This document shows, one piece after another, positions 3,459 to 33,909 of a stretch of DNA of 64,000 nt (positions are counted from its first letter, which is position 1; each line of letters opens with the position of its first letter). Below the pieces are notes generated by a model that was not told where the DNA came from, did not search any database, and worked only from the letters and a program-made list of their open reading frames with translations. The stretch spans positions 3,737,501 to 3,801,500 of the forward strand of contig NZ_CP117452.1 of assembly GCF_030687895.1 (NCBI RefSeq), read 5' to 3'. A program made the position numbers and the translations under genes. Source of the DNA: Pseudomonas sp. FP198. Lineage in GTDB: Bacteria > Pseudomonadota > Gammaproteobacteria > Pseudomonadales > Pseudomonadaceae.

Positions 3459-3472
3459 AAGTCACTGAAAAA

Positions 3473-3519
3473 TATGGTCGGGACGGAGTGATTCGAACAC
3501 TCGACCGCTAGCACCCCAT
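3473..3519 (-). other. Attachment site (left): tRNA-Pro 3' fragment
   Basis: These 47 bases repeat 33831-33877, differing by one base (G at 3507, where the intact tRNA has C). They cover the tRNA from CCA through the T arm and variable loop to the anticodon arm. Beyond the repeat the sequence no longer encodes a tRNA. This is the displaced end of the tRNA left by site-specific integration. Confidence 0.88.
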
Positions 3520-3627
3520 CTCCTTTTTCATACTTCTTGAAAGCTTCCAAAATTTTACTCTGGATTTTTATAAGCTAGTATTTACTTGAGCTCCAGCGGT
3601 GTTCTGCTCTACGAGAGTCCAGCAACG

Positions 3628-3664
3628 TCCATCAAGAGCCGACGTTTTTGTGGGGGTAAAAGTA
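3628..3664 (+). repeat. Candidate integrase arm-type repeat (left copy)
   Basis: This stretch (TCCATCAAGAGCC, then TTTTGTGGGGGTAAAA) is repeated in the same orientation at 33743-33779 with about eight mismatches. One copy lies just inside each end of the island, so in the excised circle they would flank the attachment core. That placement fits arm-type binding sites of a tyrosine integrase. It also overlaps the upstream region of the integrase gene. The role is inferred. Confidence 0.4.
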
Positions 3665-3679
3665 GGGGGAGTCCGTTTC

Positions 3680-5116
3680 ATGGCCAAAATCACCATCAAA
3701 GAACTCGAGTCGCTGACCGCCAACGATGCCGGCCGAATCCTTAGGGAGGATGGCAATCTGGCCGGTCGAATCTCAGTCCGTAAGGACGGTGTGTCGGTCA
3801 GCTTTTTCTATCGCTATCGCTGGGGCGAGCAGAATAAAGAGTACTCCTGCGGGTCCTGGCCGCGCAAATCCCTGACGGACATCCGCAAGGCGCGCAACCA
3901 GGCCCGTGCGCTCATCGATGAGCAGATCAATCCCAACGAGCACAAGAAAACCGCCAAGGCACAGGCTCATGCCGCGACGAACGCAAAAGCCGATCAGGAA
4001 AAATCGACGAAGGTCCAAACTCTGACCGTCCAGGATCTGGCCAAGGCCTGGCTGCTGGATGGCGTCGCGCGTAAAGACGGCAATGCCGAGTTGCAACGGC
4101 GCTTTAACAAGGACCTTTTGCCAGCACTCGGTAGGACAGCGGTGAACAATGTTTCCGAACACGATGTTCGGGCGCTAATCCGGGCCGTGGTCAACCGCGG
4201 CGCTCACCGGCAAGCCATCAGTTTCTTCGCCGACCTCACCCAGATGTTTAGCTGGGCTAGAAAGCGTCAGCCCTGGCGGACCTTATTGATCGAGGGCGAT
4301 CCGACTGAGTTGGTCGACATTTCCCCTCTGATCCCCGCCGACTACGAGGCGGAAAGAAGCCGTATCCTTTCCCCGGCGGAGCTGTTGGAACTGCACAACC
4401 GTTTCCAGCAAATGACCGCCGATTACGACGCCCTCCCCGCGGGCCAAAAATACGACGGCATTCGTCCGCTAAAGAAGGAAACGCAGCTCGCGCTCTGGAT
4501 TAGCCTGGGCACGCTGTGCCGAATTGGTGAATTGCTGCAGGCCGAATGGAAAAATGTCGATCTGGACCAGCAAACCTGGTTCCTCCCCAGCGAAAACGTC
4601 AAAGGCACCCGCGGCAAGAAACAGGACCACCATGTCTTCCTCTCCTCCTTCGCCTTGCATTTCTTTCAGGAACTCAAGACCCTGACGGGAGACTCCCTGT
4701 GGTGCTTTCCGAACAAGCAGGATGATGGGCATGTGGACGTGAAAGTGGTGAGCAAGCAGGTGGGTGACCGTCAAGCCCGGTTCAAAAACCGCAAGGCCCT
4801 CTCCAGACGGTGCCATGACGATACCCTGGTCCTTGCCGACGGCCAAAACGGCGACTGGACGCCGCATGACTTGCGCCGTACGGGGGCGACCATGATGCAA
4901 GCCTTAGGCGTTAGCCTGGACGTCATTGATCGCTGCCAAAATCATGTACTGGCCGGCTCTCGGGTGAGACGCCACTACTTGCATCACGACTATGCCGACG
5001 AGAAGAAAAACGCCTGGAACCTGCTGGGCGATCGACTCAGTGCGGTGCTGTCCTCGACCTACGAGCACACGCCAAACGAGTCGAAGTTGTCTTTTCCAGC
5101 GTACGCGGCGACATAG
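3680..5116 (+). CDS. Tyrosine-type site-specific integrase of the island
   Basis: This 478-residue P4-like integrase presumably inserts and excises the island at tRNA-Pro. The catalytic set is visible: R281 in T-L-C-R-I-G-E-L-L, H396 and R399 in H-D-L-R-R-T-G, and the nucleophile Y433 in R-R-H-Y-L-H-H-D-Y. The N-terminal 90 residues (F-Y-R-Y-R-W..., then S-L-T-D-I-R-K-A-R) match the arm-DNA-binding DUF4102 domain, and a core-binding helical domain follows. The frame is open from 3599, but the ATG at 3680 has a GGGGGAG ribosome-binding site and gives the usual family length. The gene points into the island from the left attachment site. Confidence 0.93.
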   Translation: MAKITIKELESLTANDAGRILREDGNLAGRISVRKDGVSVSFFYRYRWGEQNKEYSCGSWPRKSLTDIRKARNQARALIDEQINPNEHKKTAKAQAHAATNAKADQEKSTKVQTLTVQDLAKAWLLDGVARKDGNAELQRRFNKDLLPALGRTAVNNVSEHDVRALIRAVVNRGAHRQAISFFADLTQMFSWARKRQPWRTLLIEGDPTELVDISPLIPADYEAERSRILSPAELLELHNRFQQMTADYDALPAGQKYDGIRPLKKETQLALWISLGTLCRIGELLQAEWKNVDLDQQTWFLPSENVKGTRGKKQDHHVFLSSFALHFFQELKTLTGDSLWCFPNKQDDGHVDVKVVSKQVGDRQARFKNRKALSRRCHDDTLVLADGQNGDWTPHDLRRTGATMMQALGVSLDVIDRCQNHVLAGSRVRRHYLHHDYADEKKNAWNLLGDRLSAVLSSTYEHTPNESKLSFPAYAAT

Positions 5117-6416: not shown

Positions 6417-6534
6417 TCGGCGACGATCTAGAGCTCAGGAAATACGACTTTGAATGGGCTCTCATCGTAACGTTTAGACAATTGATCTTCTCAATTTTCC
6501 TGCTGCTACGCTGTCCTGACACGGAGGATAACCA

Positions 6535-6744: not shown

Positions 6745-6785
6745 CGTCGTCTGGAGGCGCGCCCCGCTTAACGCCTCCGCGGGCA

Positions 6786-7006: not shown

Positions 7007-7350
7007 AGCAGACCAGCGCTTGAGGCAATCCGTCGGCCAGATAATGCGAAATTCGACATGATGAGCTAAAATGCCATCATTGCTTTCACGTGGCGATCAA
7101 GGTCTGGGTACAGCTCAGTTCTTCTAAGCCTAACAATCAAGAAACTCGGCTCATCGACCTTTGACGATGACAAATCAGGACAGGGACGTCATGTTAAAAA
7201 AGAAATCTATTTCTCCCCTTCAGATTTTGCTCAAGCAAAGCCTCAAGCAAGGCAGCTTATATTTTATATAAGTGACACGTGCCCACCCCTCTCCAACTAA
7301 CTCCACCAAGTTAAAGGCCGCACCTTGAATAGTAAGCACAAGGAGAACGA
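7007..7350. other. Non-coding stretch upstream of the DUF262/ATPase pair
   Basis: No gene is seen in these 344 bases. The sequence becomes AT-rich toward the right. It holds two tandem CTCAAGCAAgGC units at about 7232-7256 and an AT palindrome-like TTATATTTTATATAAG at about 7257-7272 that could include a -10 element for the next operon. The promoter reading is a guess. Confidence 0.35.
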
Positions 7351-10151: not shown

Positions 10152-10162
10152 CCTTTTCTAAC

Positions 10163-10192
10163 TCGGCACTCCTTATTTGTGAGGAGTGCCGA
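10163..10192 (+). terminator. Stem-loop after the DUF262/ATPase operon
   Basis: TCGGCACTCCT and AGGAGTGCCGA form a perfect 11-bp stem with an 8-base loop, starting 11 bases after the ATPase stop. There is no T tract after it, so it is either an imperfect terminator or an mRNA-stabilising hairpin that closes the operon. Confidence 0.5.
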
Positions 10193-10321
10193 TCTACCTG
10201 CCCTACGGCTTGCCATTTACACTCTCTGGAGCCTTTATACAGCGATCCTGCCTCGCCTAACGGTGTGACGGCTTAGCATTTTCGTGGCGCATGATGCCCG
10301 ACTGAGCAGTTAATCTTGCGT

Positions 10322-10350
10322 GTACGTTAAAAATATGCAAAATGACGTAC
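10322..10350. promoter_or_regulatory. Inverted repeat upstream of dndB, candidate DndB operator
   Basis: GTACGT at 10322-10327 and ACGTAC at 10345-10350 form a perfect inverted repeat with a 17-base AT-rich spacer, 26 bases upstream of dndB. DndB homologues are known to repress their own dnd operons, and I recall a TACG...CGTA motif for the Salmonella protein, but with a shorter spacer. Operator function is inferred. Confidence 0.45.
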
Positions 10351-10375
10351 CGACAGAGAAAACACGTGCAGTCTC

Positions 10376-12981: not shown

Positions 12982-14992
12982 TTATTGACTCCCTTTCAGT
13001 ACTAGATTTCCGTGTGTTTAGCGGCGCACACAACTTTGACTTGGTACCCAAGATCAAAAGAGGCAAAAACGCTCCTATCGTTTTGTTTGGTGGCTTAAAT
13101 GGCGGCGGCAAGACAACCATTCTGAGCGCACTGAAGCTTGCCTTGTATGGCAAAGGCGTGCTCGGGTCTGGCGCTACGATCGCGGACTATCACCAATATC
13201 TTCGTGATTGCATTCATAGAGCACACAATAGCATTGCCAAACCTACACGAGCGTCCGTCGATCTAACATTTCGCTATGCGCAATACGGAGTGATTTCGAG
13301 CTATCAATTGACTCGAGATTGGTTTGTTGATCATGGCGGCAAGATCAAGGAAGGTCTTATTATTTCAAAGGACGGTCAGCATCTGACCGAACTCTCTCCT
13401 ATGAGCAAGCCCAGGCTTTCCTCAACGAGCTGATCCCAATTGGTGTTTCCGAGTTGTTCTTCTTCGACGGCGAAAAAATCGCGAGCCTCGCAGAAGAAAC
13501 ATCCGGAGATGCCTTGCGAGACTCTATCAACAAGCTTCTAGGTTTGGATCTGATCGACAGACTGCATTCCGATCTATCGGTGATTATCAGAGGGCGCTCA
13601 GTAAAAAAAGCCTCCGATGATCGCAAGCAGAAGATAGCTACGGCCGAGCGCACGTACGAGGATCTAAAAAAGCAACTCGCAGAGACACGCGAAAAGCTTG
13701 TCCATATGCGCGTAAGTACCGTAGAGGCTAATAAGAATCTAGCCAATATTGAGGCGAAGATTAATGCGCGAGGTGGTGCTTGGAGCGCCACAAGAGAGCA
13801 AGAAGCTGCTAGTCTCGACTCATTGCTTAGTGAGAAAAAGGCGATAGAACATACCTTGCATGAGATGCTGAGTGGTTTATTGCCCTTTTCTATTACTTGT
13901 AAACTCAACGAAAAACTTCTTGCGCAATTGGACGCTGAGCAGCGCACGGAAAAAGCACAGGTACTTTCTGAGTATCTGGAACGTCAGCAAAGCAATTTTC
14001 TGGCTGAGCTTGAATCGACGCTAAAAATTAGCAACCAGCAGCGCCCTGCCCTTCAAGAAATTTTCCTTAGGACATTCGGTTCAGAACTCGGTAGTAGCGA
14101 TCGAAACCAACCGCCAGTACATGAACTCTCTGATACTCAGAGATCCAGTATTGCTCATCGGCTGACGAACGATGTGAGCTCACTCCAGCAACGCGCATCT
14201 GCCCTAGCGATGACGCTTCAGGACACGGACACAGGGATCGAATCTGCAAAAGAAAATATCGGGAGAGCCCCAGAAGAAAAAGTGCTGACGCCCCTGTTCA
14301 ACGAACAAGGGCAACTACAGGGGCGCTTGTCCGTTCTGGAGGAACAAAAATCTGTACTTGTTGAAGAAGCAAAGACGATTCTTAATCAATTATCGTCAGC
14401 AGCGCGTCATCTAGATCAGTTATATACAGAGATTTCCGAGTCGCAAGAAGAAGAGAGGCTGTCCGAGCTCGCTCAAAGTGCCAGAGAGGTTCTAAAAGAA
14501 TTTTCTACTCGCGCACGGATCGAAAAGCTGAAGGAACTTGAGTCACAGTTTTACACATCTTTCAATGGTCTCGCTCGGAAAGAAGGTCGAAATCTGAGCA
14601 TTCAGATAGATCCGACTTCCTTCGAGGTTGTCCTTATTGATGATGAGGGTTTAACACTTCGTAAGGATGAACTGTCAGCGGGTGAAAAACAAATTTTTGC
14701 AATTTCTATTCTGGAGGCCTTAGCCCGTACCTCTGGGCGAAGCCTGCCAGTCGTCATTGATACACCGCTTGGCCGACTCGACTCTATTCATCGCAAAAAA
14801 CTCGTGGAAAATTACTTCCCCAAAACTAGCCATCAAGTGATTATCCTGTCGACAGATACTGAAATTGATTATGCATTCTACGAAGGCTTACAAGGAAGCA
14901 TTTCTCACTCTTATCACCTGGTATACAATCCAGAAACTCGTTCCACTCAAGCAGAGGAAGGCTATTTCTGGCGGTGGGCACAACACGCATGA
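12978..14992 (+). CDS. dndD: DNA sulfur modification ATPase DndD (one-base frameshift)
   Basis: This is an SMC/Rad50-like ATPase of about 671 residues once the frame is restored. Walker A G-L-N-G-G-G-K-T is at residues 39-46, a long coiled-coil middle follows, and the C-terminal half carries L-S-A-G-E-K-Q (signature) and V-V-I-D-T-P-L-G-R-L-D (Walker B and D-loop). The first frame ends at a TGA at 13431-13433. Homology continues without loss in the -1 frame from TATGAGCAAGCC at 13400, so one base is missing at about 13398-13400. DndD is thought to open or nick DNA for sulfur insertion. If real, the frameshift would inactivate the whole dnd system. Confidence 0.9.
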
Positions 14993-18649: not shown

Positions 18650-19806
18650 TCATTGTTTTTCCGACAACTTCGAAAGAAACTCTCGAGATATTATCTTCTG
18701 GTTCTTCGCGTTCAACTTAATAATGACTTCTCGCTTCTGTGACCATATCTTATCTTTCAAAATCGATCCACCCAAGCACAAATCCTTTGATAGGATATTT
18801 TTTATTACTGACTCCACATCACCTTTATTTGATTTTAATCCAGATATCACAATATCCGTATATAAGTCCCAACCCACAGGTCTAAACAGAAGGTGCCCAC
18901 CATCATCGCCCCCTCTGTAATCAGAAACCTCTGCCCCCTTATTAATAACCGTGCTTAACTCTGAACAATATTCAAACGTATACTTAAAAAAATCCACCAC
19001 CTGCTTCAGTATTTGCTCATTACCCTTGAAGCGATAGCGATCTAGGTCCGAGACCTTTACGCCGAGATTGTACGCTGCGAGCTTCTGTATGTTGTCATAT
19101 ATATTAACAATTGAAGTAATGCTGGTGCCATCCCTGACAGGCCCCGAGTTGAATGAAACATTGCTTTCATTAAACCAAGGATACTCATCTGACTCGATCA
19201 ATGCTCTGGTTACACACGCAGAAATATCATCTTCATCCAATGCGATTATCGCATCCTTACTCACTAGCTTTGCCTTCTTGTTTAGGGTTGTAAAAAGCCT
19301 CCTAGATCTAACTTTCCCACTTGGGGTATTCGAATGAGCTACAATTATGACGTTAATCAAATCAGCGCCTAACTGCTTATTGCTTTCTACTGCAGATTTG
19401 ATACCTGCCAAGCGATGTTGCCCGTCTAGAGCAAAAAGCTTTTCACCTCTGGTTATTGACAAAAAACCCAGGCAATTTTCAGCATACTCTGGAATTTCTA
19501 GAAGTGAAGCCTCTTCGGTATTAGGTCGCAAACTTTCTACATCGTGCCAGTTTGGATCGCCGTCATAAATCGCCACAACTAGCGAATTAAAAAACCTGTC
19601 TTCATTGCTTAACAAGTAATCAGATATTTCTTTCCCCTTTCCTCATTCAATTCTCGCTGTATTTTATCCGACAGCTTGCCAATCTGATGCAGCTCTTCAG
19701 CAAAGCCGATCAGATCTGCGGCATCCGAAAGCCTCATCATGCAACTATAGGTGTCCCATGATCCCATGTACCCTCGCAAACACGGCAAAACCAATCGCTT
19801 ACTCAT
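18650..19806 (-). CDS. DGQHR-domain (DndB-like) protein, one-base frameshift
   Basis: About 385 residues are read once one base is restored. The N-terminal part (start 19806) runs to E-E-R-G-K. Homology then continues in another frame as I-S-D-Y-L-L-S-N-E-D-R-F-F-N-S-L-V-V, and one G appears lost from the run at 19634-19637. The domain carries A-L-D-G-Q-H-R-L-A-G-I, the DGQHR motif of the ParB-like fold shared with DndB. It overlaps the preceding GIY-YIG gene by four bases (ATGA), so the two are coupled. It is a diverged relative of the dndB product 8 kb away, not a copy. A DNA- or nucleotide-sensing role is inferred. Confidence 0.78.
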
Positions 19807-20580: not shown

Positions 20581-23500
20581 TCATTTCATCATTTCAAAAT
20601 CATTAACTTTTAATGATACTGGTACATTCCAAGCATGCTGCATTAACCTCGGAAACAGGTTCTCTTCAGAACCTTTCTTTGAATTCCAACGTCGAAGAAA
20701 GTCACGATGACCAAAAAATAGAAGGTGAAGCTTCGCTCTAGAGCAAGCCACGTTGAGACGTTTCCGGTCGAGGATAAAGTTAAGATTCCCCTCGGTGCGA
20801 ACAGTAGAATAACAAACGATGTCCGCCTCACTCCCCTGAAACGCATCCACTGTATCAACAGCTATCGATAATTGACCAAGCTTCCCTTCCACCCATCCAA
20901 TCTTACGCAAGCTCGCACGCACACATTCTTTCTGCGCTCCATACGGCGTAATGACAGCCACCGAAATAGGCTTCGTTGTACTGTCCGCAAGATTAGCCAA
21001 AAACTGAGTTATCTCCTTCGCCTCCTCCCGATTTTCTTTGCTTTGCGAAACTTTCGGCTGCGATTGACGCCCTTTCACGTCGACCCAGTAAATCGATTTT
21101 TCGAGCAAATATCGCTCTTCGAAATACGCGTCATCTCGGCCATTGTGAAGCACACGTTTACCTTCACGCATGTAGAAAAGTTCTGCCACCAAATCCCCGA
21201 TCGCCGGCGCCATTCGATACTGCAAACTCAAAGTCTCGCGGCACTGTGGCGGAAGGCGCTCGAACATCAATTCAAAGAAGCTGGTATCCAAGAAATTTTC
21301 ACGTAGGAACCCAAGTTCTTCTACGGCTTCATCCTCTCGGAGCAACGGAGCGATGCTTGGTGGAAGCTGGTAGTGATCGCCTACAAGAATCACCTTGTTT
21401 GATCGCAAGATGGGAATGAGGATTTCCGGGATGGTGGCCCTGCCCGCCTCATCAATGATTGCTACGTCGAACTGGAGTTGATCTATACCTCCCTTGTTCG
21501 TAGCCAAGCCCACACAGGTGGCACCGACCAGGTTGCGGTCGGCCAAGAGCGTAATAAAAAATTCGTCCTGGTTGGCGCGCGACTGTGAGGCTTGCTTGAT
21601 CGAGGAAAGCCACATGTGACACAACGCGGCTTCATTATCCGGTAGGCTGACGGCGCCGGCAATTGCGAGATCTTCGAGATCCGTAAGGTATTCACTGAAT
21701 TGGCTGTCGAACCCTAGCGGTTTGATGACGCTACTCATCTTCTCAGGATTACCTATCCGAATAGTGCGAATCGCGTGGTCGAAGCCATCGGCATGCTCGA
21801 CTAGAAACTTCTCCAGGGCGTTGTCCACCGCAGAGTTTTGTTGCGACACCACTAGAATTCGGAGATCAGAGCGCTGACGGTAAAGCTGATACAAAATCTC
21901 AACAATAGCCGTTGTCTTACCAGCGCCAGGTGGCCCCTGAATCAACGCGATATTTCGCTCACTCAGCGCTAACTCCACCACTCGTTTCTGACTCTCATCC
22001 AGAGCCCCGGACCACGCTATGTCCCTACTCCGCACTGCCGGCTCGGCGAGATAATGCTCTGGCGCAAGCAGGATGCTCTTGAGCGCCGGGTTAACCAGTT
22101 GATCGTTGAAAAAGTCTTCTAACGCTTGCGCCTGACGCTTGAGTGCAGCACTGGGTACAGTGACAACCAAACGCAGCATTGCATTTGGCTCTTCTGGCAA
22201 CGAGAAAGCGCTCTCGATGCTAATACTGCTCTTAGTGCAAATGTACAAAGGACGCCGGCGGCGATCGCGGGAGACAACAGGCACAAACTCACAACGGTCC
22301 GCATCCCATAGCAAGAGTCGGACACAGTGGTCAGGATTAAGGAAGTTTTTGTCTGACAGCACCTCGCGAAGCTCTCGACTAGGCCTTCGAAAGCCTCGTG
22401 ATCTGACGACGGGAGACTGTCTCGTTGGAGTACAAGCACATCGTCTTCTTGAACAAGGAGCATGCTTGCTGAAAAATCCAGTACAGAAACTTCTTCCTGG
22501 CTGCGTTGATACGCGATGACCTGCTCCCAGCGCTGATAGAAACGACTGTGAGCCAAGCGCTCAGGTGAGTCTTTCATATCCATTGCAGTTTGAGAGCAGA
22601 AGCGAAGGAACTCTTCTACACCGCTTCGCCATCCAACCTGCGACATCGCCGCCAGCTTCTGATTAAGAAGCGTGAACCGAAATGGGGTATCGAGACCAAT
22701 CTGCAGAGTCCCCGCCTGAACAACCTGATGGACTTCGAGCAAGCTAAAACTGGTCGTCGGCGCGCACTCCACCCTCACTGAGGCTTTGCCCAGAGAAATC
22801 ATTCCCGTCGCACCAGAGTAGCCGAGCAGTGTCCAAGGCTCGTCCTCTTCGAAAAACTGTTGGTCGGTCACACCCTCTAGATACTTCTCATCTACGGTCA
22901 AATAAAGCTGCTGATAGGACTGAACCCCACGAGCGCGATAGTTAAACTCGCTGACCTCTATATTGGTGCGTCCTTGCTCAAAGGGATTACGTAGCAAACA
23001 CAGATCGAACTGCGTCGGATGCACCAAGATCTTTTGGCCAGAGAGCAGTCGTACGCCAGGATGCTTTAGCTGGCTGACAGGAAGCGTGGCGCGGATCAGT
23101 CCATCAAACAACGTCCCAATCATCGATTGCTTCTGCTTTCGTTCAACAATGAAAGGTACGGGTTCACCGGTGATGATGTGGTTATAGTAGAGCGCGCCTC
23201 GGGCGACACAGCCATAGAAGGATCCATTGTCCCACTTGGTAGCAGACTTGATCAGTACGGGTATCTCATCGTTGAACGGCAGTGCTAACGCCTTTTGAGA
23301 CACGTCGTCAGTACCGAACGAGATTCGATGCCCGAAGCGTGGGAGTGGCCTGCTAATTTCTTCCATCGCCACCAATACGAGCTTTCCTGGGTAAAGCCAT
23401 TCCAGAGGAAGAAGCTTGTCTGCCGGGTCAAGCGCTAGCAGCAGCGCGTAATGTTCACCCACAAGCAAGGTGTCGACTTCATTCTCCGCGAATGTCAGAT

Positions 23501-23909
23501 AGCGCTCGTACTCTTTCATGCGTACTACAGCATCTTCGACACGTGCGTACTCTCGACGAAGTGCTGACTTACGGTAGGGGCTGGAGGTCTTATCAGAAAT
23601 TTCCCGGGCAACCATCTGCTCGAGCTTATTCAGCTCCTCTGGAATTCCAACTATCGCCTCGCGGTTTTCCCGGATCACTCTACGTAAAAGTTGAACGTGC
23701 TCAAGAACCATCTCCCGATATTCTTCCCACGCCCTTTGCTCTTGACGTGCCTGAGCGGCAGCTGCCCGGCGTCGAATCTCGTCCGTACGGGCGTGCTCCT
23801 GCGCATGTTTTCGCTCTTCTTCCTCAGTCATGCTGTTAGCTAGCCAGCTGAAGACTTTAGCAACCGCAAAAATCGCAACGCCAATACCGACAACGAGAGG
23901 AGCTGCCAT
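20581..23909 (-). CDS. Membrane-anchored SF1 (Upf1/DNA2-like) helicase, one-base frameshift
   Basis: The restored protein is about 1109 residues. The first 25 residues form a hydrophobic anchor, followed by a charged coiled coil and a long N-terminal region of unknown fold. The C-terminal half is a superfamily 1 helicase: Walker A G-P-P-G-A-G-K-T, then I-I-D-E-A-G-R-A, G-D-H-Y-Q-L-P-P, Q-Y-R-M-A and V-D-A-F-Q-G-S-E-A-D. The N-terminal frame runs from 23930 or 23909; the helicase frame takes over at about 22380, where an A seems lost from CTAAGT. I prefer the ATG at 23909 because AGGA lies about eight bases upstream. It is the last gene of an overlapping four-gene operon. Confidence 0.8.
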
Positions 23910-23913
23910 AAAC

Positions 23914-24351
23914 TTATTCCTGTCCGCCACCTAGCAACATGGCAGCGTCCTCTGCCGTGATTTTTCCAGACTCGAGCTGCTTGAGTACCCGGTCCTCTCT
24001 ATCAGCCTTAGTCTCGAGCGTGGTCATTGCTATGTCGTACTGCTGATCGGCCTCTCGGCTCTGGTTTGAAAGCTCTTGCATTCTTGCCCAATGATCGCGC
24101 TTGTGTTGATCATCCTCGAACTCGGCTTCTTTCAGCTGCTGCTCCCCAAGTAGAATTTGTCGCTGCCCTTCAATCACGGTCCGTTTGGTGACTTCTTCTT
24201 CTTTCTTGTAATCAACAAACGACTTAAATGCATCAATCGATGTGTTGGCCATCTGCATCGCTTGATTCACATTGAATCCACCTCCACCTTTTTTAGGAGC
24301 GGATTTGCCCGGACTGGGCTTGGGGGGCGTAGGTTTGCGAGGTGCTTTCAT
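23914..24351 (-). CDS. Small coiled-coil protein of the helicase operon
   Basis: This is a 145-residue protein. The first 25 residues are basic and proline/lysine-rich, ending in a glycine run. The rest is one long charged helix (E-G-Q-R-Q-I-L-L-G-E-Q-Q-L-K-E-A-E-F-E-D-D), probably a coiled coil. The last 20 residues (K-I-T-A-E-D-A-A-M-L-L-G-G-G) resemble a short degradation- or partner-binding tail. It overlaps the gene before it by four bases (ATGA) and ends within the upstream region of the helicase gene. I do not recognise it. It may tether or regulate the helicase. Confidence 0.65.
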   Translation of the reverse strand: MKAPRKPTPPKPSPGKSAPKKGGGGFNVNQAMQMANTSIDAFKSFVDYKKEEEVTKRTVIEGQRQILLGEQQLKEAEFEDDQHKRDHWARMQELSNQSREADQQYDIAMTTLETKADREDRVLKQLESGKITAEDAAMLLGGGQE

Positions 24352-24884
24352 GCGTTCTCTCCGGTTGGGGTGAGCAGTAGTGCCAACGTCGCGTCAATGC
24401 ACTGATCAAGGCATACCTGTAGGCCGATCAACTGCTGGAAATTACCTAGGTCCTGTCGTTCCTTTTGAAGCAGCACATGCACTCGTTTCAAGGTATCGAG
24501 TTGCTGGCGAACTTTCTTGAGGGTCAACAATTTTTGTTGATTGGAATGCTTCAACACCTGAGCTATTTGTTCCTTACGCCCAGAACTTTCGCGCTGCAGC
24601 TGTTGGAGTTGTTTTTCCCCAATGCGCAGGTCTTGTGCGAGCGTTGCCTCGAGTGTTTTGTTGAATTCCCTCAGCTGTGCTGTGACCTCACGAGCCGCGC
24701 AGAAACGCAGGTAGCTGGCTGTCGCTTCGAGGACGGCGATTGCAGCGTCAACCCACACGGCAGTGGGATTCAGCTTCCCCAGTCCTCTTGCGCCTTGCGT
24801 GAGCAAAATGGTTCCGTAACGGCGAACCTGGGCGTCATCCACCATTTGCTCAGCCATATTGGCGAACACATCAACGACCTTCAT
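24348..24884 (-). CDS. Helical coiled-coil protein of the helicase operon
   Basis: This 178-residue protein has a small hydrophobic patch near residues 42-60 (A-V-W-V-D-A-A-I-A-V-L-E-A-T), then a long heptad-rich helix with many glutamines and leucines (L-Q-Q-L-Q-R-E-S, then L-K-K-V-R-Q-Q-L-D-T-L). The C-terminus is hydrophobic. No enzyme motif is visible. It overlaps both neighbours by four bases, so it is translated together with the winged-helix protein and the small coiled-coil protein. Partner of the helicase by context only. Confidence 0.65.
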   Translation of the reverse strand: MKVVDVFANMAEQMVDDAQVRRYGTILLTQGARGLGKLNPTAVWVDAAIAVLEATASYLRFCAAREVTAQLREFNKTLEATLAQDLRIGEKQLQQLQRESSGRKEQIAQVLKHSNQQKLLTLKKVRQQLDTLKRVHVLLQKERQDLGNFQQLIGLQVCLDQCIDATLALLLTPTGENA

Positions 24885-25999
24885 TGATCATCCTCAATTG
24901 GATACACGCCATCTAAGTCCAGGCTTTCTTGAATCATTGCCCAGTTGAAGCCTAGATGCTGCCAACGTTCCTCTATGGCATGGTGACGATTGAAAACCGA
25001 TGAAACGTTTTCCTCAGCCAGCGCCAACTCTTGGAAGAGATGCTCAATGACTTGATCTTTGGTCGCTCGCTCGACGACTGGCCACACCCAGGAAGCTTTA
25101 GGATCATCAGTAAGCTCAAGCTCTCCTACTGACTCATCATCGTGTTCAACAAACGTGGTGAACCTGCAATGGTTAGCGGGGAGCAAACTGCTCAGATGTT
25201 CGGGCGCGCCTTCGGGCATATTGAATCGAGTCGAAAGGCAAAGGACTGGGCTAGCAAACGTGAAATCGTTGGGTCTCGCATGACGCAAAGAATCAGTTTT
25301 GAGCTCAACTTCAATAGCACGGACGTCGCGTGATATTTCCGCTGCAACCCATACGGACAGAGCCCAATCCGACCTGACAAATTTCTGGTCTCGAAAACAT
25401 TCGTTGAAACTCTCGAAAGCCACTGGCAGATACTGCTCTGGAACATCCCAGATTCGGTTTTTCTGCCGTTCACAATCCTCCCCCCAGTCACTACTCGGCC
25501 ATAAACGTGGCTTACCTTCCCCACGATGCCATGGCCGGATCACAAACTCAGTTTCGTCATTAAGCTCTAACGTCTGCAGCGTGTGTACTCCGCAAAACGA
25601 GTGGCGCCTGTAGTCTCCGTCGAGCCACAGGTATTTTGTTTGCGCATGCAGCAACCGCTTAGCCTTGAGAAGAGGCTTGGCGCGAGCGGTCAGATTGAAA
25701 TTCTCCACCAACCCAAGCCCTTCGAGTCGGCGAATAATAGGATGCAGTTGCTGGGGATTGAGGGCTGTCCGTTCTAAAACCCACTCGATACCCCTGTCAG
25801 GCATCACATCGAGCGCTTCTAAAATCAAATGCGAAAAACCACCCAACTGGTCAAGTAGGCGGTGCTTGAGTGTTAGCTCATAAAGCCGAACTGGGACATG
25901 CACACGTAGACTGCCTTCAATGGCGCACGTGTATTGGCTATGGATCGTCAACCGTCGTACCTGACTATGCTCATGAGAACAATGACATTTTGACATCAT
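24881..25999 (-). CDS. Hypothetical protein with a winged-helix region
   Basis: This protein has about 372 residues. Near the N-terminus C-H-C-S-H-E-H could bind a metal. Residues around 55-95 (L-I-L-E-A-L-D-V, then L-N-P-Q-Q-L-H-P-I-I-R-R-L-E-G-L-G-L-V-E) read as a winged helix. The remaining 270 residues are acidic, mixed and unrecognised. The frame begins at a TTG at 26032; I chose the ATG at 25999 (a second ATG is at 25996), though no good ribosome-binding site marks any of them. The stop overlaps the next gene (ATGA). It is the first gene of the overlapping operon that ends with the helicase. Confidence 0.65.
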   Translation of the reverse strand: MMSKCHCSHEHSQVRRLTIHSQYTCAIEGSLRVHVPVRLYELTLKHRLLDQLGGFSHLILEALDVMPDRGIEWVLERTALNPQQLHPIIRRLEGLGLVENFNLTARAKPLLKAKRLLHAQTKYLWLDGDYRRHSFCGVHTLQTLELNDETEFVIRPWHRGEGKPRLWPSSDWGEDCERQKNRIWDVPEQYLPVAFESFNECFRDQKFVRSDWALSVWVAAEISRDVRAIEVELKTDSLRHARPNDFTFASPVLCLSTRFNMPEGAPEHLSSLLPANHCRFTTFVEHDDESVGELELTDDPKASWVWPVVERATKDQVIEHLFQELALAEENVSSVFNRHHAIEERWQHLGFNWAMIQESLDLDGVYPIEDDQ

Positions 26000-26178
26000 G
26001 GTAACGCCGGTTGGCGTTCTTTGCAGCCCCAACAGCGATCAAATTTGCGCTATCAGCCAGATTAGCTGCAGATCACTACAGTTCTCGAACACGATCGAGT
26101 CGAGGGAGGCACTTCGCTGGATCGGGCGAAGTCGAGTAGCCATCTCCGCGTTCAGCCCGCCACGAAGAACCGCGTTGA

Positions 26179-27297
26179 TCAGTAGGTGATCCCGCTTCTG
26201 CTATCTTGAAAGACTTCTTTCTCATGATATTTAAGGTAAGGCACAAGCTCCTTCGGGACAAAACGAAGCGGTATAGGCAGTCCTAAAGCCTCCCTGTGTT
26301 TTCCATCAAGACGTTTCGAAACGTGCATTTGGCCCAAGCTATCGAATGTAATTAGCCCTTTATCAAACAAAGCGTCTAAATTCGCAGACAATAGAAGGCC
26401 GTTGTGGCGGTCAAGGCGTTGTTTAGCAGTAGAGTCGATCCAAGGCTTCACATGTGAAGCTCGAAGAATTTCCCTGCATGCCAACCCCGTTACCGAGCAA
26501 GCGCCGCCCCAAATCTGCATCAGGTCCTCACGAAACTTACCCTGTCCGCGTCGGGCATTAACTCGAGTAAGCACCTCTGTGATGGGCTCACTTCCCTCGG
26601 TGATGTCCTCGGCAGGCAATGGCTCGGAAGGAGCACATTGAATAGCGTCAATCAGGCGATCCCATTTTTCATGTCGCTGGGCTGCAGGTATGGCGTCCAG
26701 AATTCGCCCTACCGTCGGAAGATCCAGATCGGTGTAGGTACTGTACATTCCAAGCAACCTCTCCTTTCCCGTGATCATCCTTGGGTCCAGAGTAATTGGC
26801 TTTTCAAACCACCAGAAATAATCCTCTGGGCAGATCCAGTTTGGAATCCAGTGCAGGTCCTTCTCCCAAGCCTTCAGGAATTTCTTTTGGTTACCAGCGA
26901 ACCGCTTTCGGACATTTTCAACATTCCAGGCGTCCTCCCAAAAGTCGCCCAGCGATAACTCGCGAACAATTTCTTCGCGCTGAGCAAGATGGTGGTCATC
27001 GAACAGACCGACTGCATTCCCTGCGATGCCCACTAGCTGTTGAATGCTGTCATGCGACGTCGTCAAAAACACGAATGTCTGCCCCGCGTTTTGGTCAATT
27101 GGTGCCGCGCCCACCCCCTCTGTATGAAACACTCGAAAACGATTCTTTCCACGCGAAAGGACCATTTTTGAAGAGTTATTCCACTCCTCATGGCCGTATC
27201 CGTTTGCTGCAGGGAAGCCACTTGTTCCAAGGACCCCGGAGGGCGCAAGGTACTGGTTTGTGTTCCAAAAGATAGGTTTCTGAATGAACAGCGCCAT
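26179..27297 (-). CDS. HNH endonuclease with N-terminal putative reader domain
   Basis: This 372-residue protein has a clear C-terminal HNH nuclease: A-C-S-V-T-G-L-A-C, then L-R-A-S-H-V-K-P-W, then N-G-L-L-L-S-A-N-L-D-A-L-F-D-K-G. This pattern is common in restriction-type HNH proteins (PF13391). The N-terminal half contains G-Y-G-H-E-E-W-N-N; I recall similar G-H-E-E-W segments at the front of other HNH restriction proteins, where a modified-DNA-binding role is suspected. It lies 203 bases after the large ATPase gene and about 180 bases before the winged-helix gene, all on the minus strand. It may belong to the same defence cluster or be an independent type IV-like enzyme. Confidence 0.85.
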   Translation of the reverse strand: MALFIQKPIFWNTNQYLAPSGVLGTSGFPAANGYGHEEWNNSSKMVLSRGKNRFRVFHTEGVGAAPIDQNAGQTFVFLTTSHDSIQQLVGIAGNAVGLFDDHHLAQREEIVRELSLGDFWEDAWNVENVRKRFAGNQKKFLKAWEKDLHWIPNWICPEDYFWWFEKPITLDPRMITGKERLLGMYSTYTDLDLPTVGRILDAIPAAQRHEKWDRLIDAIQCAPSEPLPAEDITEGSEPITEVLTRVNARRGQGKFREDLMQIWGGACSVTGLACREILRASHVKPWIDSTAKQRLDRHNGLLLSANLDALFDKGLITFDSLGQMHVSKRLDGKHREALGLPIPLRFVPKELVPYLKYHEKEVFQDSRSGITY

Positions 27298-27500
27298 CTT
27301 CTTGCTCGTCCTTGTTCAATTGGTATCAATGGATCGTTTAGGTTTATCTTAAGGCGTTTTGCAGCACATCCTCAGGGCGTACCGGGAACACACCTCACGA
27401 ACTTCAGCATTAAGGACGAAAATGTCTACGTAATCTCACGCATCCCTGACTGCTGTGTCGTCGTCCTTAAGTCCTAGCAGACCGTTTCCGCGACCGTGTT

Positions 27501-30500
27501 TCATTTTGGATTGAACTCGTACACGACGCTTCCCTTCCCAACCGCCCGAAACGTTCCAGCACCTTTACTCGAGAAAGGATTGGCAAGGAGTGTAGGAGTC
27601 ATCCGAGCGGGGTCTCCAACATTGGCGAGATATAGGATTCGGTACTTATGCTCGCTATCGCCACGATAGCGTTGTGCCGCAAAGATTTCGGTAGGACCCA
27701 GCTCGAATCTCAATGGATTTCCAGAACTCGCCTTAACCTCGTAGTAGTAAGTACGGCTCTTGGTCGCGACAATGAAGTCATATCCCAAACTGTCCGAACC
27801 GCCGCTCGTGTTTAATACTGCATCGCGATAGCGGGATACCCATATGCTTTCGTCAACTGACTCTAGCTTGTGTCGGCGGCGAAGCCATTCGCGGGCCCAT
27901 AGCTCTCCCATTAAACCTACCGCGAGCTTCTGCTCATCAGACATGCTCGTCTCGGAAAGCTTGGGCATACTTCCATTCCCACCGCCGCCGGAAGTCCCGC
28001 TTGTCTTATAAAAGTCTATCGTTTGTAGCGTAGCCTCTTTCGATGAAACATGATTTAACGCGGGTGCTTGGGCTGCCGCCGCAACAACTGCAGCGGCGAT
28101 GTCGATGTACCCCGCCGTGATCGCGGACATGGATACACCGTCAAACTCTACCTGCATGCGCCGACGTTGCTGTTCCAACCGAATATTCTTTGCCCGCTCC
28201 TCATTGCTAACCATGCTCTCCGCGGATAACCCCCAATACGTCAAATCCTTGCTTGCGGCTTTTCCAACAGGCCAGATACCAGCTTGGGACAACCACTGCA
28301 CGATTTCACCATCATCCAATAAACGGAAGTCCAGCCAGCCACAATCACGCGCATGGGCGGTGCAGGTATCACGCGCCGCTTCTGGGGTACTCCATGACTG
28401 GCGTACCAAGAGGGTTTCAGTGATTCCGCCAGCGCGAACCCAGGCCGACAGTATCGGTGCGTAATGAGTCAAAAAATTACGAAGTTTTGCGCCGTTGGAC
28501 GCTCGACATTCAGTCAGAGTTAGGTCCATTGACGAATCCGAAGCGCTAGCAGGCATCGCTCCATCAATCCAGCTATCGATTTGGGTATCCATCACTGCTG
28601 CGGGTAATTCGTCATACGTTGTGAACCAAGTTGGCTGTGGAGCGATAGCAAGTACCCCTTCCCTAGCGGCAATGTATGCATCCAACCTCAGCTTCTTGTC
28701 GAATAAACCAACGCTACGCTCTCGCAAGCGTTCGATTATGTTTGTCTGCTGTAGGCGCAAATGGCGCATCCAGGCCTCTCGATGCATATGCTCATTGCTG
28801 GCGAGCTCGTATTGGTCGCCAAGAACAGCAATGGCCTCATTGAGTTGGGCGATCGGAAGTAAGAACTCCACCTTGAGGTCGGACAAATCGGCCAGATGAA
28901 TCATCCGAGCCTCAAGGTTCGCAAGCGGTATGCCAACCTCGAATGCCAACGCTTCAAATACCGCACGCAGATCTTCATCCTGAGGTTCGCTCTGTGTCGA
29001 AAGCTCTTGGAGGCGTGCCGTGGTTTGCGGTGACGCTTTACAGGCTGAAAGCGGTATCGCGAGATGGAGCATTCCAATCAAATCACCACTTACGAGAAGC
29101 CGTGTTTGCCGGATTGCTTCCGGTTCCACCCCCAGAGCAGATGCCAAAATCGTATCATCGGGAGTTTCTTCGCCCCCATTCCGCATTGTGGAGGCAAGGC
29201 GCAACAAAGCAGCATCAAGACCATGCGCCAAATCTCGCGCCCCCAGAGCAACAGCCAACTGGGCTGATGCTCCTGCAACATGCTCTAGTGTCAAAGGTTC
29301 CTGCTCTGCTTGGATTATCAGTACGGGACCAGCCGCACGATTGAGAACAAGTGAACCACGCAGTGACAAAGGCATGGGTACCCATTTGTTGCCGTGGGCG
29401 ATTTGAATTTTTTGCCCGCTAACCACCTCCAACGACAATGCCGCACGTCGAATTCGCCCAAGTGTTCTTTGGGTTGACTGCATGAATACACTGCTTTTGT
29501 GTTCTGCAACACACACAAGGAACTCGACAAACCATGACCCTATGACATCGCTCAGAAGACGACTTGGCGTACGGTCATCAAATCTGATGCCGTCGACGTA
29601 GACCTCAGCTGGCTCGTCAGAGATGAGTCGAAACCTTTGCGGAACACTGTTGTTCACCCAACCCCACGCAGCTGCGGTGTCTCCCGGCACGAAGTCGAAA
29701 ATAGGTTCTCCGACCTCCTCCAACAACTGCTTCTTTACCCCATCACGCTCATCATCGAAGTATGGCTCGGTATCTTCTTCGATCGTTCTGGTGAGCACTC
29801 GAATTTCATTGCCTATACGTACTGGCACAGAAGTGCCAGCCTCAGGTGTACCTTTCTTACGTGCGTGGATCCATAGGCGTCTAAACCACTCCTGAAACCG
29901 CCGCACGTCCCGAATATCGGAGATTCCCCCAGAAGCTGATTCGATGAGTGCGAGCAACGCACGCCCAGCATGCAACTCATTATTGAACAATCCAAACTTC
30001 GCTTCGCGTTGAAGCCATTCGAGCGATTGGGAGTCAATCGCTACTGCCACTTGGTGGGCCACGAACTCTACGAAGCGCGGGGGGCGCTCCTCTTCGCTGT
30101 TGAAATACCATGCATCTGAGGGTTTAACGAACCGTAACTTACCTCCCGGGTGAATCACCGGTAACCACTGAGCACCGGTTAGAAAGGCGAGTAGGGGAGT
30201 TGATAGCCGGTGTACCTCTCCATTGCCGATCTCCGTCCGTACGGCGCGGAATGTACGGTGTTCGTCACTAAACGATCGCATAGCCAGTGCAACCTGTACT
30301 GCAAAGTCTCTCCTGACATCTGGCGGAAAGGACTCGCATTCACCCTGACCTGGAATACGCCAAGGCCGCATTTCTGCCCGGTAGTTGCGTGTAAAATACA
30401 TTTGGGAACAGTCTTGCGTAATTTGTGCTTTCCAGTGGGAGCGCAACGTTTCGGTGATTCCTGGCAAATCGCGTGTGACGATTAATGGCAAAAGTGCGGG

Positions 30501-32906
30501 AAAGCCAATAGGATTGGCGGTGATGCTTTCACCGCCAATGGGGCGCAGGCAATCAACCACGCCACTGGCATTGAGAAAGCGAACCCATTCGGATTGGGTT
30601 CCATAACGAATTGGCCACGCAACGAATTCCGGCACCAAGCGTGCCAAAGAGACCTTCATATCGTCAGAGTCATCGGCAGTGATCCGTAGCAACGCTTGCA
30701 ACTTGCTGCCATTCGGAACCTCCCAACCGGCGCCAAACATAGCTGTCTTCGCATCAACCCAGTCGTTGGCGGTCGGTACAAAGAAATCAGCCGAGCGCGT
30801 CTCCTTGTCGGAAAGCGACCGACCACTGCTCCATAATCTAAAGGCCCATTCGAGGGCCTGTTCTCGTGTACGGTCAGGAACGGATGAGCGAGTCACTCCG
30901 GCAAGGGTGCGAAGTACGTCTCGGGTGTCGTACTCGCGGGCCAGCTTACCGGCAATGAGGAAGGAACGGCCAGGTCGATGGCCGCCATCGTCCTTCAACC
31001 AGGGTATATCTCGGCTCAACAAGGCGAATCCCTTACGCAGCGTTGCGGGGAGTTGATCCAAAGGTAAAGCTCGCTTGCTAGCTTCATCGTCGACGTCTGC
31101 GTCGACAGACAGTACTGGCGCGAAATAGACATCCGCTGCCCGCCGGCTGCGGCCGGAGTTAGTGTTCGCAGGTAACTCACTGCTGATTAAGTCGCCACTG
31201 ACGCTCAGCAGAAACTTTTTGCCGGAAAGATACGAAGCATGGTCCGCCATCACGGTAGACACTTCATCATAAAAATCAGCCCACCGCTCCGGGGCGGCGA
31301 TCTGCTCATGCATTTTTACGGCGATTGCCTCAATCCAGCCCGCGATCACTTTGGCGGGAGGTTTAAAGTCAGACTGTCTAAGTCGTATATACAATCGATC
31401 CAATGCTGCTCTCTGCGACAGCGTGAGCGAATCGACTAATACCTTTCCGCCTCCAATCTCGCAAATTGCCTTAGTGGATAGACAGGCATTGCCGGGAGCT
31501 ATCCATGAATACGTTTCCTTGGGCGATGCCCAAGAAATCGTTTCATCATCTCCACGTACAGGGAGAAACTCCCGATTGAAGATGCCTTGGCCGTCGTCGC
31601 CCATGCCGAGCTTCAACGCGGGTTGATACGCTTCGTCCCAACATAGAAGGCTGACGACCGCACTCGGCGCCTGCGCCCACCCACTATTGACCATAAAGTC
31701 GATCAGTTGGCAGCTTAACCAGGCGGCCGTGCGCATAAAGAATTCGTTGAGGCCAATCGATACGTCGACAGTTCTTCGGTCCATCTTCGTGTAGAAGTTG
31801 GCATTGATGTAGCCGCAGAACGGTGCTTTGCCTTCCGCACCAAGCGGTAGGAAGCAATACAGCCTTCCCATCTCCAAGGGGGCATCCAGCGGGACCGCGA
31901 TGCTGATCCTCGCGATACCGTCCCAATCCCTCCAACTTTCCGGTATCTCTTCCCTTTCAAGGCTTGCGTGCAACGCCTGCCTGAACAGCTGGTCATCGAT
32001 GTCCCAATGAGCCGCGACAAACCTCGCATTGCCGAGGCAGAGCTTGGCCACAGTGATTGGCGAGTCCACCTTCAAGCCCTTGGGTATTACAGGCCAGGTC
32101 TCCTCTACCGACCGTTCCAGCACGAAAGGCTCGTTCATTCCAGAATCGATAGAAATACGTCCAACCCGATCCAAAAATAACTGAAGCGGTGTGGACAAGC
32201 TCATCAGTACGTCAATTTGCGCCCTTACGGATTGAAGCGCTTCTAGCGATTTCAAAGGTAAGCGGACAACGGTGGCAAAGCCTGCCTCGGCAAATCGTGT
32301 GACCTTGTCATCGGGCTCAGTGAGAACTGGTATATGCCAACAAGGTAGGTTGCTGGCCATCTCTTGAGCGGCATCGGCCGAGTGCACGTCCTTGTGTGCA
32401 CGCAGATCATCAATGGTCGCAAACCGGAAGCACAATCCGTCGAAGGTAGCTCCTCCCCCTTCGCCACGAACCGAATAGATTTCGGGCCAACTGCACACCT
32501 GAAGCACACTTCGAAATCCCAGTCCCTTATTTCCGATACCGGCATTGACGGGTTTGCTACTCAGCGCAATGTTGGTGATAGCTTGCAAGTTTTTACCAGT
32601 AAAACCAGCACCACGATTAGCAACATACAGACAACCATGGCCCTCAGTAATGTCTAGAACTAGGGCAATTTCACCATCTGTACGCGTTGGATCGTGAGCA
32701 TCATGAGCATTCTGGATAAGTTCTACGAGAAAACGGTTGCCGTAGTCATCGGAGACGAACTGCGACATATTCCGTACGCTCTGATAGAGGCTGGGATCGT
32801 TGCGAGCAGCGAGGTAATTCGAGATACGTTGATTCATCAGCTTCGCGATTGATTCCGCAGGGCCGAGTTCTTGATCTACTAACGGCATTTCAATACTTCC
32901 CGACAT
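27501..32906 (-). CDS. Giant GHKL (sacsin-like) ATPase with C-terminal DUF3883 nuclease-like domain
   Basis: This is an 1801-residue protein. Residues about 56-135 form a histidine-kinase/Hsp90-type ATP site: L-V-E-L-I-Q-N-A-H-D-A at 60-70, N-R-G-A-G-F at 97-102 and G-I-G-N-K-G-L-G-F at 123-131. This N-terminus resembles sacsin-like proteins. The long middle is unrecognised. The last 160 residues carry G-E-L-W-A-R-E-W-L, G-Y-D-F-I-V and Y-Y-E-V-K-A-S, the PD-(D/E)xK-like core of DUF3883. AAGGAGG precedes the ATG at 32906. Proteins with this pairing are found in bacterial defence islands. It is the most upstream gene of the minus-strand cluster that ends with the helicase. Confidence 0.85.
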   Translation of the reverse strand: MSGSIEMPLVDQELGPAESIAKLMNQRISNYLAARNDPSLYQSVRNMSQFVSDDYGNRFLVELIQNAHDAHDPTRTDGEIALVLDITEGHGCLYVANRGAGFTGKNLQAITNIALSSKPVNAGIGNKGLGFRSVLQVCSWPEIYSVRGEGGGATFDGLCFRFATIDDLRAHKDVHSADAAQEMASNLPCWHIPVLTEPDDKVTRFAEAGFATVVRLPLKSLEALQSVRAQIDVLMSLSTPLQLFLDRVGRISIDSGMNEPFVLERSVEETWPVIPKGLKVDSPITVAKLCLGNARFVAAHWDIDDQLFRQALHASLEREEIPESWRDWDGIARISIAVPLDAPLEMGRLYCFLPLGAEGKAPFCGYINANFYTKMDRRTVDVSIGLNEFFMRTAAWLSCQLIDFMVNSGWAQAPSAVVSLLCWDEAYQPALKLGMGDDGQGIFNREFLPVRGDDETISWASPKETYSWIAPGNACLSTKAICEIGGGKVLVDSLTLSQRAALDRLYIRLRQSDFKPPAKVIAGWIEAIAVKMHEQIAAPERWADFYDEVSTVMADHASYLSGKKFLLSVSGDLISSELPANTNSGRSRRAADVYFAPVLSVDADVDDEASKRALPLDQLPATLRKGFALLSRDIPWLKDDGGHRPGRSFLIAGKLAREYDTRDVLRTLAGVTRSSVPDRTREQALEWAFRLWSSGRSLSDKETRSADFFVPTANDWVDAKTAMFGAGWEVPNGSKLQALLRITADDSDDMKVSLARLVPEFVAWPIRYGTQSEWVRFLNASGVVDCLRPIGGESITANPIGFPALLPLIVTRDLPGITETLRSHWKAQITQDCSQMYFTRNYRAEMRPWRIPGQGECESFPPDVRRDFAVQVALAMRSFSDEHRTFRAVRTEIGNGEVHRLSTPLLAFLTGAQWLPVIHPGGKLRFVKPSDAWYFNSEEERPPRFVEFVAHQVAVAIDSQSLEWLQREAKFGLFNNELHAGRALLALIESASGGISDIRDVRRFQEWFRRLWIHARKKGTPEAGTSVPVRIGNEIRVLTRTIEEDTEPYFDDERDGVKKQLLEEVGEPIFDFVPGDTAAAWGWVNNSVPQRFRLISDEPAEVYVDGIRFDDRTPSRLLSDVIGSWFVEFLVCVAEHKSSVFMQSTQRTLGRIRRAALSLEVVSGQKIQIAHGNKWVPMPLSLRGSLVLNRAAGPVLIIQAEQEPLTLEHVAGASAQLAVALGARDLAHGLDAALLRLASTMRNGGEETPDDTILASALGVEPEAIRQTRLLVSGDLIGMLHLAIPLSACKASPQTTARLQELSTQSEPQDEDLRAVFEALAFEVGIPLANLEARMIHLADLSDLKVEFLLPIAQLNEAIAVLGDQYELASNEHMHREAWMRHLRLQQTNIIERLRERSVGLFDKKLRLDAYIAAREGVLAIAPQPTWFTTYDELPAAVMDTQIDSWIDGAMPASASDSSMDLTLTECRASNGAKLRNFLTHYAPILSAWVRAGGITETLLVRQSWSTPEAARDTCTAHARDCGWLDFRLLDDGEIVQWLSQAGIWPVGKAASKDLTYWGLSAESMVSNEERAKNIRLEQQRRRMQVEFDGVSMSAITAGYIDIAAAVVAAAAQAPALNHVSSKEATLQTIDFYKTSGTSGGGGNGSMPKLSETSMSDEQKLAVGLMGELWAREWLRRRHKLESVDESIWVSRYRDAVLNTSGGSDSLGYDFIVATKSRTYYYEVKASSGNPLRFELGPTEIFAAQRYRGDSEHKYRILYLANVGDPARMTPTLLANPFSSKGAGTFRAVGKGSVVYEFNPK

Positions 32907-33823: not shown

Positions 33824-33830
33824 TGAATTA

Positions 33831-33877
33831 TATGGTCGGGACGGAGTGATTCGAACACTCGACCCCTAGCACCCCAT
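33831..33877 (-). other. Attachment site (right), within tRNA-Pro
   Basis: This is the right copy of the 47-bp repeat found at 3473-3519. It covers the 3' half of the tRNA, from CCA to the anticodon arm, and keeps the tRNA intact. The integrated element therefore restored the gene with its own 3' end. Confidence 0.88.
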
Positions 33878-33909
33878 GCTAGTGCGCTACCGGACTGCGC
33901 TACGCCCCG
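33833..33909 (-). tRNA. tRNA-Pro(GGG)
   Basis: The 77-base minus-strand sequence folds as a tRNA. The acceptor stem pairs CGGGGCG with CGTCCCG and the CCA end is encoded. The T loop is TTCGAAT, and the anticodon stem CTAGC/GCTAG encloses the loop ATGGGGT, giving anticodon GGG (proline). It follows the ihfA-merR genes on the same strand, a normal Pseudomonas arrangement, and is the integration target of the island. Confidence 0.95.

Follow-up and report, generated by a model that had tools for sequence, protein, structure and literature searches.

A conserved four-gene module with a membrane-anchored UPF1-like helicase, putatively of antiphage type, lies beside unrelated Tiamat and HNH genes on a tRNA-Pro island of Pseudomonas

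Introduction

Two described defence systems, Mokosh and CoCoNuT, lie closest to the locus analysed here. Mokosh requires a nuclease of the PLD family, which has a gene of its own in type I and is fused in type II, and type I carries a serine/threonine kinase domain (PMC11672841). CoCoNuT systems of types II and III comprise the UPF1-like helicase CnuH, McrB/McrC-type genes (CnuB and CnuC) and the downstream wHTH-nuclease CnuE (PMC11090510). The same source states that UPF1-like motors act on RNA and single-stranded DNA and serve RNA surveillance in eukaryotes (PMC11090510).

The window considered here is a stretch of 64,000 nucleotides (C1:3737501-3801500) from the genome of Pseudomonas sp. 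FP198, which consists of one contig of 5.86 Mb. An initial annotation had assigned to it one minus-strand cluster of six genes over 12 kb, which would combine two nuclease-like domains with a link to the membrane. The reading favoured here, to which we give a probability of roughly 0.55 on the strength of sequence comparisons, is that a conserved four-gene module of antiphage type lies beside unrelated Tiamat and HNH genes on a tRNA-Pro island, and that it would work through a helicase held at the membrane.

Results

The genes lie on a 30-kb integrative island at tRNA-Pro (3472-33864), which is bounded on both sides by an exact direct repeat of 35 bases. The left copy (3472..3506) marks the island end and adjoins a phage-type integrase (3599..5116, plus strand; PF00589, E 1.6e-15); the right copy (33830..33864) overlaps the tRNA-Pro gene (33833-33909). 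Also on the island are a gene for a GmrSD_N protein and, overlapping and following it, one for an AAA ATPase (7351-10151), which may form another defence pair and show partial matches of NsnA and HEC-04 type, homologues of DndB, DndC and DndD (10376-14992), and a second DndB-like protein (18650-19615, minus strand; PF14072) distant from the other Dnd genes. The dndD gene (12978-14992) appears to be split by a frameshift, the second broken gene on the island beside the helicase discussed below: a 151-aa ORF (12978-13433) stops early, and an ORF at 13454 matches positions 155-657 of the DndD model. Tiamat, Dnd and GmrSD with the AAA ATPase are the known defence genes that accompany the core in the window, and the defence setting described for it at the outset is supported.

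The four genes termed the core here, all on the minus strand, were compared with those at three other loci: L001 (P. putida NBRC 14671), L007 (genome G256) and L025 (genome G774, from another family of the class). The gene for the winged-helix protein WH (24881..25951, 356 aa) probably starts with the TTG at 25951, which gives 356 aa as in L001, and its open frame extends back to 26032. It is followed by the genes for CC1 (24348..24884), a helical protein of 178 aa and of no known family, for CC2 (23914..24351), a small protein of 145 aa with a Pro/Lys-rich N-terminal tail, a helical middle and a C-terminal SHOCT-like motif, and for the helicase. The ATGA overlaps at 24884 and 24351 claimed earlier are both real, and the junction at 23914, for which either an overlap or a near-overlap had been proposed, is a near-overlap: the helicase most likely starts with the ATG at 23909, which aligns with residue 1 of the 1111-aa protein of L001 and sits 4 bases past the end of the CC2 gene.

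The ORFs of the six-gene cluster were confirmed, but the initial annotation had overlooked that the helicase (whole region 20581-23930) spans two frames. Its N-terminal piece (22119..23909, minus strand; the ORF runs 22119-23930) comprises a membrane helix and, in outline and with a low-confidence model of the L001 relative as a guide, a long helical stretch and a beta-rich domain, and covers profile positions 1-523. The C-terminal piece (20581..22362, minus strand, other frame) carries the UPF1-like SF1 motor and covers positions 499-1105; the two profile matches overlap at 22338..22413, the zone of the frame shift. The helicases of L001, L007 and L025 (1111, 1148 and 1123 aa) are each encoded in a single frame, and 41 of the 42 helicase relatives listed measure 1,098-1,123 aa (the remaining one 855 aa), in a search confined to candidates of 0.55-1.75 times the query length (about 611-1,944 aa), among which shorter split pieces could not appear. 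A programmed frameshift as the rule of the family was ruled out on these lengths and single frames. Compared with L001, dN/dS is 0.03-0.12 in all four core genes, namely 0.045 and 0.028 on either side of the break and 0.061-0.115 in the other three, values that are rough, with synonymous sites near saturation. Since conservation relative to L001 is as high on either side of the break as in the other core genes, the frame shift would be either recent decay or a sequence error; barring such an error, the module is probably off in this strain.

The order WH - CC1 - CC2 - helicase is identical in the window, L001, L007 and L025, where neighbouring genes overlap by up to 14 bases or stand up to 12 bases apart. 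The respective coordinates for WH, CC1, CC2 and helicase are 10022-11092, 11089-11634, 11621-12058 and 12062-15397 in L001; 8371-9477, 9474-10016, 10027-10467 and 10480-13926 in L007; and 10560-11600, 10027-10557, 9535-10014 and 6164-9535 in L025. Helicase identity is 34% between L007 and L001, about 40% between L025 and the main family, and 31% between L025 and L007. In single comparisons with the family profiles, the L025 partners matched at E 9.7e-21 (WH) and E 1.1e-28 (CC1), and CC2 of L025 matched that of L001 at E 2e-06. The L007 partners matched at E 4.5e-10 for WH, over residues 6-115 only (the winged-helix part), and at E 3.2e-06 for CC1; CC2 of L007 was assigned by position only. As a control served proteins encoded next to a different UPF1-like motor, in L030. 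There an unrelated coiled-coil protein showed no comparable match to the profiles of CC1 (E 0.14) and the helicase (0.34), nor did its small neighbour to that of WH (0.021, spanning 9 residues).

By protein search, 38 relatives of WH, 26 of CC1 and 42 of the helicase were listed, with named sources that include Serratia fonticola, Pokkaliibacter plantistimulans, Pelistega europaea, Pseudomonas japonica, P. aeruginosa and Pseudomonas sp. ABC1. When the longest contigs in the three match lists were compared, 32 pairs of equal size were found on 22 contigs. A null for coincidence of contig size (1,000 shifts of 1-500 bases either way) gave 0.136 pairs on average and never more than 3. A same-size partner was found for 14/26 CC1, 17/38 WH and 18/42 helicase relatives; unpaired ones would be expected where a cluster is represented by its longest contig alone, and were not counted as evidence. 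In a tree of the motors, a branch with support of 95/99 (94% of 200 bootstrap trees) parted 29 core motors from 15 other UPF1-like motors, which were taken from scans and included no verified MkoA or CnuH; several other branches were long. Within the core, the L007 and L025 motors were sisters (96/92). Judged by gene order and homology, WH, CC1, CC2 and the membrane-anchored helicase are a real four-gene unit and one operon, as had been proposed for the last four genes of the cluster from their overlaps in the window. The neighbourhood is likewise conserved: the unit is kept without the HNH and GHKL genes in L001, L007 and L025, and the match of contig sizes supports linkage on 22 more contigs.

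Two further loci were considered as cores and rejected. L030 (G017) was ruled out as a split form, its coiled-coil and small proteins matching no core profile, and L024 (G343) was ruled out because only its motors are related and the neighbours differ. The L030 cluster (6367-11772) encodes proteins of 642, 401 and 133 aa, the second of them rich in charged helices, and a UPF1-like motor of 622 aa, a close relative of which is carried by G1057 (L027). It looks as if this cluster occupies the same site as the island of the window, both adjoining the same three chromosomal genes (merR-like, ihfA and pheT).

The COG1112-type motor named in the initial annotation is supported as a UPF1-like motor by Pfam, by PADLOC and by a PDB search, in which the nearest structures were UPF1, NAM7 and SMUBP-2 (E 9.4e-48). 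Its best PADLOC match is MkoA (PDLC03920; 404.8 bits for the L001 helicase, residues 560-1091 on model positions 539-1095 of 1112), and of the best 20 of 425 plasmid records matching the L025 motor, 12 are annotated as serine/threonine-protein kinase. Both results would fit a core derived from Mokosh, in which a type I motor lost its kinase and PLD partner, gained new partners and acts on phage RNA, the presumed target of Mokosh itself. However, the MkoA match is limited to the motor and its close surroundings (the earliest model position reached among the four proteins tested is 423), Pfam finds no kinase in the N-terminal part of the window's helicase (22122-23930), and no PLD family was found in the seven cluster proteins of the window (Pfam and PADLOC), the L001 helicase (PADLOC) or WH, CC1 and the helicase of L007 (PADLOC), which upholds the earlier separation of the locus from Mokosh. 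Moreover, the three partner families go beyond those described for Mokosh, and the core motors group apart from the motors sampled, with no verified MkoA among these. Descent from Mokosh is accordingly regarded as unlikely.

The N-terminal membrane anchor attributed to the helicase was borne out by a hydrophobic helix at all four loci (19-residue Kyte-Doolittle means of 2.22, 2.22, 1.71 and 1.86, that of the window being 2.22). In CC1, relatives have a moderately hydrophobic stretch near residues 40-60, and the strongest stretch in the window's CC1 lies at residue 153; the CC1 values (1.52-1.61) stand out no more than that of a stretch in the WH of L007 (1.58). Matches of CC1 below threshold were RbcX (E 0.003, below the Pfam cut-off) and phrog_4616 (E 0.065), and the SHOCT-like match of CC2 (PF22746, E 8.3e-06) scored 25.7 bits, below its cut-off of 27. 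Both small proteins had been labelled coiled-coil, a label that is weak: in a test of heptad periodicity it fails for CC1 (178 aa), for which 115 of 500 shuffles scored as high, and is borderline for CC2 (145 aa; 15 of 500). In the predicted fold of WH, residues 57-131 of the 383-aa frame form a MarR-type winged helix within a beta-rich domain without a match. Beyond the winged helix, a fold search of the PDB and BFVD gave no match at E <= 0.001, the rest of the model being barely probed by it, and no nuclease family was found in WH by Pfam, PADLOC or NCBIfam. The Pelistega-type WH relatives P0038 and P0039 are extended at the C-terminus by roughly 100 residues and measure 458 and 456 aa, compared with about 355. 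In PADLOC-DB 2.0.0, no model matched WH, CC1 or CC2 at E <= 0.1, a check that agrees with their earlier placement outside known systems, and none of PADLOC, Pfam, NCBIfam and PHROGs names these three partners.

The membrane-type helix at the helicase N-terminus at four loci, together with the absence of a nuclease from the proteins searched, would also suit abortive infection, with WH and the motor sensing infection and the helicase anchor and CC1 damaging the membrane or draining ATP until the cell dies. Yet the hydrophobic stretch of CC1 is just moderate, no known pore or toxin family was recognised, and a single-pass anchor is the more usual reading of such a helix, which leaves abortive infection rather improbable.

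The core is rare in the genomes sampled. These samples overlap, and few candidates were scored per genome (two in the helicase searches of 298 genus, 339 class and 299 phylum genomes), which makes all counts lower bounds; G017, for instance, was missed in the genus helicase search and found among the 95 relatives. CC1 was detected in 1/298 genus genomes and the WH profile in 1/369 class genomes, in each case in the own genome only. The helicase profile at 1e-60 found 2/298 genus genomes, the own one and G256 (the search matched the motor only, and the N-domain of G256 was aligned afterwards), 2/95 relatives (the own one and a motor-only case) and 2/147 genomes of the family of G774 (G774 and a motor-only case). 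At 1e-30 it found 6/339 class genomes, with the N-domain matched in the own genome only, and 8/299 phylum genomes, with the N-domain matched in the own genome and G774. One locus came from a scan of genome contigs with six strict peptide patterns. A search of 50,697 phage records gave no relative of the helicase N-domain, neither this domain nor WH had a match on plasmids, viral contigs gave no match for the helicase, WH or CC1, and no E. coli genome was found by DNA similarity. Absence from the phage, plasmid and viral sets searched is unusual; it is atypical of a mobile defence gene and counts against an antiphage reading.

The surroundings of the core point the other way. Two GmrSD genes and an MkoC-like gene lie around it in L007, and type I restriction-modification genes (HsdR, HsdM and HsdS) in L025, so that with the window 3/4 loci have a defence-gene setting. 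In L001, the core is flanked by a YhaV/PrlF toxin-antitoxin pair and a LysR gene, the other neighbours being ordinary chromosomal genes. The neighbourhood supports a defence role on the basis of four loci, among which the setting of L001 is weak. The MkoC-like helicase of L007 (1,560 aa; L007:632-5314) lies beside the core. An operon for RNA or DNA maintenance, or one directed against plasmids, that came to lie on islands by chance would be consistent with the ordinary chromosomal setting in L001 and with the role of eukaryotic UPF1-like motors in RNA surveillance, as stated in PMC11090510. Set against this are the very patchy occurrence of the core and the three loci within clusters of known defence genes, and such a function outside phage defence is likewise considered unlikely.

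The remaining two genes of the supposed cluster were resolved into separate units. The giant gene (27501..32906, minus strand, 1801 aa) matches the model of the Tiamat defence protein TmtA, a GHKL ATPase with DUF3883 (PADLOC PDLC03971; 1765.5 bits, E 0, residues 13-1800 of 1801). The GHKL and DUF3883 ends ascribed to it are present: NOV_C (PF13020, DUF3883; 23.7 bits) in Pfam and a sacsin-type ATP-binding domain in NCBIfam lie above their cut-offs, and of the Pfam matches SACS (29.1 bits) and HATPase_c (19.6 bits) neither reaches its cut-off. By this match the gene is Tiamat, a named system separate from the four-gene core; the PADLOC run thus gave a name to the giant gene but none to the core partners. 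The HNH endonuclease gene (26179..27297, minus strand, 372 aa) has the nuclease domain claimed for it, a C-terminal HNH_2 at residues 267-319 (Pfam). Among 147 plasmid records matching it, the neighbourhood was taken from one, the Azospirillum plasmid pAB510e, where a full-length relative with 42% identity lacks both Tiamat and the core within 8 kb. Nor is an HNH gene adjacent to the core in L001, L007 or L025, and the HNH gene looks independent of the core. The claim of a single six-gene cluster was not supported, Tiamat being separate and the HNH relative on pAB510e standing alone. One system of all six genes, which might be suggested by their common strand and by the lack of further long minus-strand genes among them over 12 kb, is highly improbable and refuted as a general rule, given that the cores of L001, L007 and L025 occur without Tiamat or HNH, that Tiamat is by definition a single-gene system, that the relative on pAB510e has neither neighbour, and that gaps of 203 and 227 bases part Tiamat, HNH and core (WH start taken as 25951).

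Discussion

The locus is better read as known Tiamat, an HNH gene that looks independent, and a new core present in a broken copy. This core looks like an undescribed and rare module of antiphage type, a function that we infer from its composition and setting. Among the matches listed from open-licence PMC full text, to which the search was confined, no description of the four-gene set was found.

On the preferred reading of an antiphage-type module with a helicase at the membrane, the core is probably a membrane-tethered translocase of RNA or single-stranded DNA. The N-terminal helix would hold the helicase at the inner membrane, where its long helices, CC1 and the SHOCT-like CC2 might build an oligomeric scaffold. 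The MarR-like WH would bind nucleic acid, or a factor bound to nucleic acid, and load the motor, which may then travel at the membrane along RNA or single-stranded DNA of the phage, stripping, displacing or exposing its substrate. As a result, phage entry, early transcription or replication would fail, possibly with the aid of host nucleases. This final, phage-blocking step is a guess and the weakest part of the mechanism, because a nuclease or other effector was recognised nowhere in the core. A bolder version would have the anchored UPF1-like motor, with its two-protein scaffold and MarR-like loader, pull on or strip incoming phage nucleic acid at the site of entry without any nuclease of its own, as a bacterial membrane counterpart of the eukaryotic RNA surveillance helicases; we regard it as an unlikely, though conceivable, extension.

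If the core protects against phage, three families without recognised relatives would join the UPF1-like defence helicases known from Mokosh and CnuH, and its membrane-placed architecture without a recognised nuclease would provide a compact test case for nuclease-free motors. L001, L007 and L025 are clear members from which models can be built, enabling detection by defence finders.

Among known systems, Tiamat is recognised in the window by its defining architecture, one large protein with a GHKL-type ATPase and DUF3883, which the gene at 27501-32906 has. The likeness of the core to Mokosh lies in the COG1112/UPF1-like SF1 motor, for which MkoA is the best PADLOC match. It differs in that the core proteins tested contain neither kinase nor PLD domain, that an N-terminal membrane helix, long helices and a beta-rich domain are present, and that three partner genes are added. 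With CoCoNuT types II and III (PMC11090510), the core shares an operon that joins a UPF1-like helicase to a winged-helix protein and to coiled-coil parts. In contrast to CoCoNuT, the WH gene lies upstream rather than downstream and has no recognised nuclease, CC1 and CC2 are separate proteins, the helicase has a membrane anchor, and Pfam found no McrB/McrC-type genes among the seven cluster proteins and ten further proteins of the window. As to the features of the CoCoNuT helicase (an OB-fold stalk and a helical insertion after Walker A), the core has a UPF1-like motor, and the predicted model of the L001 helicase is poor (pLDDT 69.2, pTM 0.32); as to CnuE, an elongated wHTH with an effector nuclease, WH has a MarR-type winged helix, the rest of the protein being barely covered by the fold search. 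From the eukaryotic helicases UPF1, SMUBP-2 and Sen1, the core differs in everything that precedes the motor and its surroundings, and in its partner genes.
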